From Methanosarcina sp. DH2 (lineage in GTDB: Archaea > Halobacteriota > Methanosarcinia > Methanosarcinales > Methanosarcinaceae), in NCBI RefSeq assembly GCF_020804225.1, contig NZ_WJBI01000011.1, forward strand, positions 1,631-42,448: 40,818 bases of DNA. The letters are read 5' to 3'. Under the pieces are notes generated by a model. The model saw only the letters and a list, made by a program, of their open reading frames with translations. It did not search any database and was not told the DNA's origin. Below are positions 21,471 to 25,068 of this stretch, one piece after another. The position numbers and the translations under genes are program-made. Every line of letters starts with the position of its first letter. Position 1 is the first letter of the stretch.

Positions 21471-22316
21471 TCAGTGCAGTCCGCACCTGCATTCCTCTTC
21501 ATACTTTTCCACAGCTTTTCCTTCTTCGCCGCGGTACATTGCGAGCCTGTTCATGAGCTGGACAAAATCAACCTCACGGGCATCAAACTCAGGCCCGTCA
21601 ACGCATGTGAACTTTGTTTTTCCATTGACTGTAACTCTGCAGCCTCCGCACATCCCTGTTCCGTCCACCATTATGGAATTGAGGCTGACCAGGATTTCAA
21701 CATCATAGGGGAACGCAACCCCTGCCCCTACTTTCATCATGATTGGGGGTCCGATAATTACAACTCTTGCAACCTTTTCACCGCTGTCCAGAATCCTTTT
21801 CATGATATCGGTTACAAACCCATGGTGCCCTTTTGACCCGTCATCGGTTGCTATGTACAGTTCGGAACTGGCTTTCTCCATTTCATTTTCAAGAATCAGG
21901 AGGTCTTTATTTCGGGCTCCTATAATTGAAATTACCTTGTTGCCTGCATTCACATAAGCCTTCGCCTGGGGGTAGATAGGGGCAACTCCTACTCCTCCTC
22001 CTACAAGAATTATAGTACCGAGTTTTCTGACATCAGCAGGAGTACCAAGGGGTCCGACAAAATCTTCAAGGGAATCGCCTGCAGAAAGCTTTGCAAGCTG
22101 TTTTGTGGTCTTGCCCATTTCCTGATAAATTACAGTAACCGTGCCTGCCTCTCTCTCAAAATCCGCAATTGTAAGAGGAACTCTTTCCCCCCTTTCATCA
22201 ATCCTGAGGATTATGAACTGTCCGGCTTTTGCAGCCTTTGCCACATCAGGGGCATCTATTATCATTCTGTGTACCGATGGAGCAATTTCTTCCTTTTCCA
22301 GTATTCTATATGCCAT
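21471..22316 (-). CDS. NfnA/SudB-type ferredoxin-NADP reductase small subunit
   Basis: A 281-residue flavin reductase with an N-terminal FAD beta-barrel (AGQFIILRIDERGERVPLTI, residues about 32-51), an NAD-binding domain beginning IILVGGGVGVAPIYPQAKAY and a C-terminal [2Fe-2S] cysteine loop GTGMCGGCRVTVNGKTKFTC. This is the pattern of the small subunit of NfnAB or sulfide dehydrogenase. With NfnB it would move electrons between NADH, NADPH and ferredoxin. The C-terminus ends CRCGLH, adding two extra cysteines. A TATA-like ATATATAT near 22458-22450 (minus) is the likely operon promoter. Confidence 0.88.
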   Translation of the reverse strand: MAYRILEKEEIAPSVHRMIIDAPDVAKAAKAGQFIILRIDERGERVPLTIADFEREAGTVTVIYQEMGKTTKQLAKLSAGDSLEDFVGPLGTPADVRKLGTIILVGGGVGVAPIYPQAKAYVNAGNKVISIIGARNKDLLILENEMEKASSELYIATDDGSKGHHGFVTDIMKRILDSGEKVARVVIIGPPIMMKVGAGVAFPYDVEILVSLNSIMVDGTGMCGGCRVTVNGKTKFTCVDGPEFDAREVDFVQLMNRLAMYRGEEGKAVEKYEEECRCGLH

Positions 22317-22884
22317 GAGATCACATTTTCCTGAGTAAAAGCATATCTTCTGAACAAATGATAGGGTAAATTTAAATGTAACTTAGCTTTATGCGGGTTC
22401 CTGTCCTTCTGCGTTTTCGCATGGACGTTCCCCTTATACTGATTAATGGGATATATATTCTCCCAAATAATTTTAGTTATTCTACCTGGTCTTCATTACC
22501 TTTTTAGTTTAATCATAAATGCCTGTTTTTTTGACAAATTTATCGAATAGGAACGAAACTTCTTCAGATCCTTTTAACCTATCTACAAAAATTTAATAAA
22601 TCTAGAGGGTGTAATAAATTTAAGGGTAAATTCCCAAACTCGGCTGATCCGTGGGTTGGATTGGTGTAAAGGAGGGGTGAAACAAAGGTACTTCAAACGA
22701 TAGCTATAGCTGAAGCTACAGGTCTTAAAATCCTGAAGAAAGGAATAATTCATTCTGATGATTTACTGGCAGAATAGGTTAATTTCCTTTTTGAGGGCAA
22801 AATACAAAGACAATATGGATTTACGAAATGAAACTTCTGAAACGAATCTGTTCATAATATACAAACTATAAAAGGAGTTGGATT
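22317..22884. other. Intergenic region upstream of nfn-type operon and small-protein genes
   Basis: About 570 bp between divergent units. It has the minus-strand TATA-like element near 22450-22458. From about 22660 to 22778 the plus strand has an open stretch reading QTIAIAEATGLKILKKGI then HSDDLLAE and stop, preceded by AAAGGAGGGGTG but in a different frame. This could be a decayed small gene; it has no usable start and was not called. Confidence 0.4.
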
Positions 22885-23025
22885 ATGCCGGAAGAACGAA
22901 GAGAAGGGGAACAGGGAGAAAAGCTGGAAAAGAAAGAAGGAGAAGAGGTCGCAGACGTTGACCCTATCCATCCGTCCGAAGCAAGGGGTGGCAAGAAAAG
23001 ATCACTTCTTGACACCTGTAAATAA
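22885..23025 (+). CDS. Small acidic protein with C-terminal HPSE-GGKK-LLDTCK motif
   Basis: A 46-residue frame too short for usual gene calling. Start ATG 22885 has AAAGGAG seven bases upstream. The N-terminal half is a Glu/Lys/Arg-rich, probably disordered segment; the C-terminal half is VDPIHPSEARGGKKRSLLDT then CK, with Cys45 next to last. The same 22-residue C-terminus ends the next gene (23087-23305). Across those 22 codons 7 are identical, 11 differ only synonymously and 4 change the residue, which argues strongly that both are translated and conserved. I recognise no family. A role as a metal- or thiol-binding peptide, or as a modified peptide, is speculation. Confidence 0.75.
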   Translation: MPEERREGEQGEKLEKKEGEEVADVDPIHPSEARGGKKRSLLDTCK

Positions 23026-23086
23026 CTTAATTCCTTTCTATTTTTTTGTGCTGAAATAAGTAATAGAATATATAGGGGTTTATTCT

Positions 23087-23305
23087 ATGACCGAGGAAAT
23101 TGGTGTTGAGCCTGTAAATCCGGTGGAGAAAGAGCACGGAGGCAAAAAAAAGCCTCTGGTAAGTTGTGAAAAATACGATGAAGAAGAGAGAAAAACACTT
23201 CTTAAGGAAGAACGGGGAGATGACGAAGAAGCTAAAGTTGAGCCTATACATCCCTCTGAACAGAGAGGAGGTAAAAAGAAAGGCCTTCTTGACACGTGCA
23301 AGTAA
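23087..23305 (+). CDS. Small acidic protein with two copies of the GGKK-Cys motif
   Basis: A 72-residue protein, paralogue of the one just upstream. Residues 51-72 read VEPIHPSEQRGGKKKGLLDT then CK, and residues 7-28 hold a degenerate copy, VEPVNPVEKEHGGKKKPLVS then CE, so the motif occurs three times in the two genes. Conserved positions are Val-acid-Pro, Pro, Glu, Gly-Gly-Lys-Lys, Leu and Cys. The linker (29-50) is highly charged. ATG 23087 has AGGGG eight bases upstream; the gap to the first gene is 61 bp. No transmembrane segment or signal peptide. No recognised function. Confidence 0.75.
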   Translation: MTEEIGVEPVNPVEKEHGGKKKPLVSCEKYDEEERKTLLKEERGDDEEAKVEPIHPSEQRGGKKKGLLDTCK

Positions 23306-23838
23306 ACAGGCTTTTATTCTTACCTTATTACTACGAGAGCGTGGAGAGTCACGAATACCTCGTTTTTCATATCGGGGATGAAGTGAACCCCGCCTCTTTT
23401 TAGTTTCGGTTTAAACATTTAAATCATCTTTTCTTTGCAAAATGACAGGGAGTCGGATAGGAAACCGAAAGCAGAGTTTCAATCATTTATTTTAAGGAAA
23501 CCTTGTTTAAGGGATGCTTAACTATTCCCTTGAAACCGAGCTGGCAGCCCGAACACAGCCTGAAGCACAGCCTGAAGCACAGCCCGAAGCATGCTCCATC
23601 ATTTAGGGTGGGGTGGCCGCACGTAATTTGATTTTTTTAATTTTTTATCCTTTATTCTTTATTCTTTAATTTCTCTTTTATCCTTTGATTTTACCTATGA
23701 TCTCATTTCATTCTATTTTTTAGCTCTTTACTTCTGGTTGATTTAAAATATCCTTCTTTATCGATTTATCCCGATAATCCCGTTAAGTGCATGTTTTTAT
23801 GTCTGCCCAAATCCCTTCCGGCAGCTTTCCATTAAATA
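23306..23838. other. Intergenic region between small-protein genes and arsR
   Basis: About 530 bp. It contains the 12-bp repeat at 23545-23591 (listed separately) and a T-rich stretch at 23625-23700. No clear gene. A 30-codon frame through the repeat is described with it. Confidence 0.45.
23545..23591. repeat. 12-bp direct repeats within a possible 30-codon mini-ORF
   Basis: CAGCCTGAAGCA occurs at 23556-23567 and 23568-23579, with variant CAGCCCGAAGCA at 23580-23591 and a degenerate 11-bp copy at 23545-23555. In one plus frame it reads QPEA three times inside an open frame 23514-23606 (ATG to TAG, 30 residues, ending ACSII). AAGGG directly abuts that ATG, which is too close for a normal ribosome-binding site, so translation is doubtful. 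The period of 12, a multiple of 3, is nonetheless what a coding repeat would show. Confidence 0.6.
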
Positions 23839-23868
23839 TATATGGATATATGCGCATATATTCATATA
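23839..23868. promoter_or_regulatory. 30-bp near-perfect palindrome, probable ArsR operator
   Basis: The sequence from 23839 to 23868 is a palindrome centred between 23853 and 23854 with a single mismatched pair (23845/23862). Its core ATATATGCGCATATAT (23846-23861) is perfect. The AT-rich dyad resembles the 12-2-12 operators of ArsR/SmtB regulators. It overlaps the TATA-like AAATATATA (23834-23842) and the predicted transcription start, so a bound repressor would block initiation. It ends 3 bp before ATG 23872, which argues that translation does not start at the upstream ATG 23842 lying inside the dyad. Confidence 0.75.
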
Positions 23869-23871
23869 CTT

Positions 23872-24192
23872 ATGATTGATAGTAAAGTAAAGTTCTTTAA
23901 AGCTCTCGGAGATGAGACACGGCTTACTATCCTTTCTTACCTGCTGGAACACAGTTATTGCGCCTGTGACTTTTCTTCCCTTACAAAAAAGGACCAGACT
24001 ACAGTTTCAAAGCACTTGAAGGTTCTTGTTGAAGCTGGAATTTTAAAGTACGAAAAACAGGGAAGAAACATCATCTACAGCATCAAAAACGAGGAGACCA
24101 ATTGCTTGCTTTTATCTCTTGGAATCCGGGATATAAAACCCTGTTGTGATAAGCAACATTTTTCCAGAGTGTGTTCTACAGATAAGACCTAA
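23872..24192 (+). CDS. arsR: ArsR-family arsenite-responsive repressor
   Basis: A 106-residue winged helix-turn-helix regulator. The N-terminal FFKALGDETRLTILSYLLEH is typical of the family. The metalloid site CACDF (Cys30, Cys32) at the start of the recognition region corresponds to the CVCDL site of classical arsenite-binding ArsR; the recognition helix is DQTTVSKHLKVLVEAGIL and the wing is YEKQGRNIIYSI. Extra cysteines Cys91, Cys92 and Cys101 may contribute to metalloid binding. I start at ATG 23872 because the upstream ATG 23842 lies inside the operator-like palindrome. It probably represses itself and arsM, 126 bp downstream. Confidence 0.88.
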   Translation: MIDSKVKFFKALGDETRLTILSYLLEHSYCACDFSSLTKKDQTTVSKHLKVLVEAGILKYEKQGRNIIYSIKNEETNCLLLSLGIRDIKPCCDKQHFSRVCSTDKT

Positions 24193-24318
24193 ATCTGAAT
24201 TAACAACATCCTAAAGAAGGAACTAACGATCAGCTGAGGGTAAAGCTAGCTAAGGATAACAGAAAATAAATTTAAGGTAAAAAAGGAAGATACGAACAAT
24301 AAGGAATGGGATAAAAGA

Positions 24319-25068
24319 ATGGATGACACTGAGAAAAAAGAAATTATCAAAAAGAAGTATCAGGAAATTGCAACTTTAGGGGGCTCCTGCTGTTCTGGCG
24401 GCGGGTGCTGCGGTGATTCGGGTCCAGTAGACCTTTCCAGGTCTCTTGGCTATTCGGAAGCTGATGTTCAGGCTGTCCCGGATGCAAACCTTGGCCTTGG
24501 CTGTGGCAACCCTACTGCTTTTGCGGAACTGAAACCTGGAGACATTGTCCTGGATCTGGGTTCAGGTGCGGGATTTGATTGTTTTCTTGCTGCACAGAGG
24601 GTCGGAATCTCAGGCAAAGTCATCGGAGTTGATATGACTCCTGAAATGATTGAAAAAGCACAGGCCAACGCCCGAGAGTATGGCTATTCTAATGTTGAGT
24701 TCCGCCATGGAGATATTGAAGATCTTCCTATTGATGACAGTTCTGTGGATGTTATTATTAGCAACTGCGTGATTAACCTGGCGCCGGATAAAGAAAAAGT
24801 TTTCAGGGAAGCATTTCGAGTTCTGAAGCCCGAAGGCAGGATGTATGTTTCGGATATGGTCCTTCTGGCTGATTTACCCGAAGACCTTAAAAACGATACT
24901 GGTCTGCTTGCAGGCTGTGTCGCTGGTGCTGTGTTAAAAGAGGAGTATCTAAGGCTTTTAAAAAAGGCAGGGTTTTCGGTTGAAATCCTGGCTGAAGATG
25001 CGGATATAAGTAAAAGGCAATACGGAGGTCTGCCAGTCGAAAGCCTGAAATTAAAAGCCTGGGTATAA
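24319..25068 (+). CDS. arsM: Arsenite S-adenosylmethionine methyltransferase
   Basis: A 249-residue SAM methyltransferase that methylates arsenite to mono-, di- and trimethylated arsenicals. The SAM motif I is [20 protein letters not shown] (about residues 78-97), followed by [13 protein letters not shown] and GDIEDLPI. The three arsenic-binding cysteines of ArsM enzymes are matched by Cys62 (GLGCGNP), Cys150 (SNCVINL) and Cys200 (AGCVAGA); the 50-residue spacing of the last two is as in characterised ArsMs. An extra Cys-rich N-terminal cluster [12 protein letters not shown] (21-32) precedes them. Its partner arsR lies just upstream. The start has only a weak ribosome-binding site (AAGGA 13 bases upstream). 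Confidence 0.92.

Follow-up and report, generated by a model that had tools for sequence, protein, structure and literature searches.

An undescribed microprotein family with a portable sequence motif in Methanosarcinia

Two adjacent small genes of Methanosarcina sp. DH2 belong to a real and so far undescribed family of microproteins whose motif is portable, i.e., the locus is more than a tandem pair of small genes. They lie within a stretch of 40,818 nt (contig NZ_WJBI01000011.1), referred to as the window, and a genome search confines the family to this locus within the window's own genome. Both frames are present as the initial annotation had it, with ATG starts and lengths of 46 and 72 aa. 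They are built from two conserved modules, A and B, as follows (window coordinates).

22873..22877, + strand: Shine-Dalgarno sequence AGGAG of ORF1, 7 nt before the ATG
22885..23025, + strand: ORF1, a 46-aa microprotein with ATG start; conserved acidic leader, then a C-terminal module A
22951..23022, + strand: module A of ORF1, ADVDPIHPSEARGGKKRSLLDTCK; placed by profile A3 (E=1.6e-14 in its own genome) and column frequencies
23075..23078, + strand: Shine-Dalgarno-like GGGG of ORF2, 8 nt before the ATG, weaker than the ORF1 site
23087..23305, + strand: ORF2, 72 aa with ATG start; module B, variable linker and module A
23105..23194, + strand: module B of ORF2 (residues 7-36), VEPVNPVEKEHGGKKKPLVSCEKYDEEERK; profile A2, E=1.3e-21 in its own genome
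23195..23233, + strand: variable linker of ORF2 (residues 37-49), pN 0.20-0.38
23234..23302, + strand: module A of ORF2 (residues 50-72), KVEPIHPSEQRGGKKKGLLDTCK, pN 0-0.04

The two proteins end alike, and the codon comparison made earlier is exact: among the last 22 codons of ORF1 and ORF2, 7 are identical, 11 differ synonymously and 4 change the amino acid. The ribosome-binding sites claimed for both genes are found as well, and the GGGG upstream of ORF2 recurs in some of its orthologues. Within the window's own genome, a 25-position family profile matches two places, with E values of 1.4e-15 and 1.6e-14. Judged by these values and by the orthologues across two families, the motif is far beyond chance. 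Both proteins are acidic overall (pI 5.1-5.3), with charged residues making up 47-50%; there is one Cys in ORF1 and there are two in ORF2, while Trp is absent from the window copies.

Relatives were found in 79 of the 112 genomes of the window's family (Methanosarcinaceae). At the order level, a profile search of 186 genomes identified them in 12 genera in all and gave nothing convincing beyond the window's own family. Elsewhere in the order, other families gave matches with E values of 0.007-0.06, which were attributed to chance: L255 has no recognisable motif and L257 only a short RGGKRRRLLNTC stretch. Outside the order, 44/52 genomes of the class carry family members; going by L049 and L050, these are presumably Methanotrichaceae. 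In a phylum sample of 392 genomes, the family occurs in two families only, i.e., the window's own and Methanotrichaceae, and a search of viral contigs with the family profile found none. Weak motif matches in frames of 690-780 aa (E 0.1-0.3) were likewise taken as chance. Altogether, 106 distinct family proteins were gathered. A Shine-Dalgarno sequence precedes 118 of the 119 distinct family genes, and 105 of the 119 start with ATG.

In a comparison of ORF1 and 19 full-length orthologues, synonymous sites proved saturated or nearly so and replacements are few, such that dN/dS is about 0.02-0.06 where computable, or below. The peptide is thus under selection, as had been proposed from the codon comparison. 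Missing or frameshifted orthologues had been named as one observation that would speak against the genes; orthologues are in fact plentiful and keep ORF1 intact. Conservation extends to the acidic leader. That is, the description of a disordered acidic leader agrees with the predicted disorder, but within Methanosarcina the leader of ORF1 is conserved at the protein level and no free filler. As far as can be told from sequence, ORF1 and ORF2 are real genes of an undescribed microprotein family.

The earlier statement that no known family matches also stands. Pfam, NCBIfam and PHROG give no match above any cut-off (E values up to 10), and sequence and profile comparison with PDB chains yields no credible match for module A or B. 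Rfam returned nothing for 22300-23900, and hence no known RNA is located there. In the literature, we found no paper with the motif letters and none linking the domains to which the motif is fused. Within main-text passages of the published M. mazei sORF study, no orthologue was identified. The orthologue in L185 reads MPEHKKKPIVSCEKYDEEERK...LLDTCK and its genome may be M. mazei; part of the family may thus already sit, undescribed, in the published M. mazei sORF list.

Module A has the general form A-[KHD]-[VI]-x-P-[IV]-[HKR]-x-x-[DE]-x-R-x(3-4)-[KR]-x-L-L-D-T-C-x, and 82 distinct sequences yield the core A-[KHD]-[VI]-x-P-[IV]-[HKR]-P-[GS]-[DE]-x-R-[GV]-x-K-K-[KR]-x-L-L-D-T-C-x. Both ORF1 and ORF2 show V/I-x-P-[IV], the invariant R, the C-terminal LLDTC and a disordered charged leader. 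Among the distinct cores, R is conserved in 100%, P in 96%, LL in 96-99% and C in 98%. His is found in 65%, with Lys or Arg taking its place in the others, the two Gly in about 70% and the first Lys in 68%. The His and GGKK that the initial annotation described as fixed are therefore so near Methanosarcina only and not family-wide. Its fixed penultimate Cys holds for nearly all cores, except for a few members: in L134, L136 and L137 (three genomes, one genus), the C-terminal Cys is replaced by Gly (LLDTGE) within an otherwise intact motif.

These frequencies bear on the reading as a Cys-based redox or metal (cobalt, iron-sulfur, nickel) peptide, in which the penultimate Cys would ligate a cofactor or be oxidised. 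Besides the near-constant Cys, it could draw on the N-terminal MTHH, a possible metal site common to many stand-alone members of both families, and on module B, which carries its own Cys beside the same KKxL[LV] context. However, the Cys is Gly in the members just named and also in module B of L006 and L008, about a third of the cores have Lys or Arg instead of His, and the regulator N-termini described below lack the Cys at the end of the motif. Since some members have Gly at the Cys position, a thiol is not the whole story. The metal- or thiol-binding role suggested earlier is weakened accordingly, and we regard it as unlikely.

A precedent for it in the same organisms is MtrI (MM_2401), an oxygen-responsive small protein of the Methanosarcina mazei Mtr complex whose Cys40 caps the corrinoid cobalt of MtrA (PMC12774963). 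Like the family studied here, MtrI is encoded by a small stand-alone gene; it is limited to Methanosarcinales and patchy there (PMC12774963). Its target is a large complex, with a single Cys making the key contact (PMC12774963), a mode that in broad terms resembles the one proposed below. Compared by description rather than by alignment, MtrI differs in its 68 aa, four helices, N-terminal four-Cys zinc ribbon and aromatic contacts, whereas the window proteins have only one or two Cys and show no four-helix body in the AlphaFold2 prediction. MtrR (the sORF16 protein), sP36 and other M. mazei sORF regulators bind a metabolic complex or a transporter, and MtrR and sP36 resemble the window proteins in being short and stemming from unannotated ORFs (PMC13370731, PMC10714827). 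Again by description only, MtrR is uncharged and oligomeric, in contrast to the high charge content of the window proteins. MtrR, like MtrI, is broadly comparable to the mode proposed below in that a small protein targets a larger partner. We do not claim membership in the MtrI or MtrR families.

The initial annotation had taken the N-terminal part of ORF2 for a third, degenerate copy of the motif. It is instead a separate module, KKPLVSC[DE]KYDEEERK, which is conserved and distinct from module A. In several Methanosarcina genomes, module B forms a stand-alone gene of 42-45 aa just downstream of the ORF1 orthologue; such stand-alone genes are present in L012, L013, L128, L176, L177, L179 and L180. 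Other genomes show it decayed by a stop or truncation. ORF2 of the window is a fusion of module B to a second module A, with orthologues in L004-L008 and L010. The pN of its module B is 0.09-0.13, i.e., between those of its module A and its linker listed above. By this contrast, ORF2 reads as two beads on a flexible string. Members in L271 and L272 (contigs of G086) have long leaders that consist of repeats, e.g., KVEEVKAEESKVEE, and seem to have grown by repeat expansion.

The motif is also found on other proteins. A blind search with a 25-column motif profile returned a 210-aa frame in G058 (E=8.4e-7), with its orthologues scoring weaker. The frame encodes a GbsR/CudC-like winged-helix regulator (NF047500) whose N-terminus contains KKVARVTPVHPGDERVCKKGHRCSLLSPG. 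Regulators with this motif N-terminus are present in 11 genomes of one related genus, and one genome of a further genus has a poorer version of the extension; homologous regulators elsewhere are without it. Profile-profile comparison of motif and regulator extension matches 20 columns at E=2.9e-9. In the regulators, the motif ends differently, i.e., LLDTC becomes C-S/P-LL-x-P and the terminal Cys is not kept. Regulators of this type have a DNA-binding domain, unlike the microproteins. The gene in G058 (L190:3360-3983, C1, minus strand) adjoins a carboxymuconolactone-decarboxylase (CMD, AhpD-like) gene, and in L120, L121 and L130, CMD-like genes are likewise found no more than about 3 kb away from microprotein genes.

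A further carrier is a PRC-barrel protein (PF05239) of 171 aa in G092, a Methanosarcina genome (L269:383-898), which has the motif as C-terminal tail ...AKVESIHPSEKEKGGKKRSLLDTCK. This arrangement is known intact from G092 only, on one contig. Decayed copies are found in G092 and G091 (L303, L304), so that an assembly slip is an unlikely explanation of the fusion. PRC-barrel repeats also run in an 850-residue open frame of the window's own genome (G000:C28:254554-257492), and other Methanosarcina have similar frames, 650-850 residues long. DUF1269 genes adjoin small family members in L040 and L129.

Fusion to a DNA-binding regulator would fit a family that binds nucleic acids, with the basic stretch that follows the invariant Arg (RGGKKK, RVRPKR, RGRGRR) contacting DNA or RNA and the acidic leader tuning the contact. 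In the GbsR-like regulator, the motif would then be an N-terminal DNA-contacting arm. The basic stretch indeed keeps its composition while its letters vary. On the other hand, V-x-P-[IV] and LLDTC are conserved more strictly than the basic stretch, the pI of ORF1 and ORF2 is acidic, and the motif is also carried by a PRC-barrel protein, a type not known to bind nucleic acids in this way. We thus consider nucleic-acid binding quite unlikely.

The gene neighbourhood names no partner because neighbours change between lineages. In the window as well as in g4 and g5, NADPH-dependent glutamate synthase-like and sulfide dehydrogenase-like flavoproteins adjoin the locus. Several other genera have a hexulose-phosphate-synthase-like gene and an A24 peptidase beside the family gene, g10 has a ferritin-like protein and YjbQ, and Methanotrichaceae have heme-synthesis genes. 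No modifying enzyme, transporter, protease or carrier is conserved as a neighbour. Directly downstream of ORF1 and ORF2, an ArsR-type regulator gene followed by an arsenite methyltransferase gene (PRK11873) occupies 23842-25068 of the window, and the same two genes follow the pair in g5 genomes. Between ORF2 and the regulator gene, the 12-nt unit CACAGCCTGAAG is repeated three times in tandem (23554-23589).

The A24 peptidase as neighbour led us to consider the microproteins as prepilin-type substrates. Archaeal type III signal peptides have a KKG-like cleavage site with a hydrophobic helix behind it. Family members carry G, S, H or P behind KK, and as a hydrophobic segment is absent, the idea was rejected. 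We also checked the A24 site in family genomes without a match. This site contains no motif-bearing frame, which means that the gene has not merely diverged but is absent, and given that it is missing from the relatives' site in several Methanosarcinaceae genomes, the family gene is accessory.

The lack of a conserved neighbour also affects two further readings. If the motif were a degradation or localisation tag, a protease or targeting system would read it and the microproteins would be decoys or adaptors. Its occurrence as a terminal tail, both on unrelated proteins and on otherwise featureless peptides, fits such a role. But no protease or carrier gene is conserved beside the motif, which is moreover N-terminal in the regulator and C-terminal in the others, and we hold a tag to be improbable. 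The initial annotation had also suggested a substrate or carrier peptide. A modified substrate, carrier or precursor peptide would match the order of an acidic leader and a conserved core with one Cys. Here, the missing modifying enzyme or transporter weighs against the idea, as do a leader that varies strongly among genera with the core kept and the presence of the core inside larger proteins. We give this reading hardly any credence.

The motif thus appears stand-alone, in tandem, in the B+A fusion, at the N-terminus of the GbsR-like regulator and as C-terminal tail of the PRC-barrel protein. A short conserved segment that occurs singly, in duplicate and at either terminus of unrelated domains looks like a docking motif. 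Given this appearance, we take the microproteins as putative modulators or competitors that use module A to bind one partner in common; that is, we infer that the motif is a docking site and the microprotein regulatory. The chances seem to us about even that the family consists of disordered microproteins which dock via a portable linear motif and regulate, or compete for, a putative partner.

Under the docking proposal, module A would bind as a peptide to a conserved surface on its partner, be it a single protein or a complex, and the free microprotein would modulate or compete for that partner. In ORF2, modules A and B on the flexible linker could provide a second or bivalent contact. The free microprotein is predicted to be intrinsically disordered: AlphaFold2 gives the free peptide a mean pLDDT of 63 and a pTM of 0.17 with no confident fold, and the last 20 residues reach a pLDDT of about 80 without forming one. 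Conditionally disordered regulators of the CP12 type are small and charged, fold or dock on a partner and have Cys in the contact. The likeness to them (PMC9406205) is one in kind only, and no sequence relation is claimed.

Against docking, the basic cluster (e.g., RGGKKK or RVRPKR) could equally bind nucleic acid, and the regulator and PRC-barrel fusions might retain the motif for different reasons. The altered motif end in the regulators, the single intact PRC-barrel fusion and the lineage-dependent neighbours also count against it. A more specific version, which we offer as a rather doubtful possibility, is a lineage-specific docking code. Here, one conserved receptor of methanogenic Methanosarcinia would be competed for by the microproteins, the GbsR-like regulator and the PRC-barrel protein, with the code being lost in methanotrophic relatives.

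To our knowledge, only a handful of archaeal microproteins have a known function, which in each case concerns core energy or nitrogen metabolism. The family described here is older and wider than most archaeal microproteins and spans two methanogen families, including acetate-using ones. It is strongly selected and yet missing from every family library tested. Since a transcription regulator and a PRC-barrel protein also carry the motif, three independent baits are available for a direct search for the partner in genetically tractable Methanosarcina.
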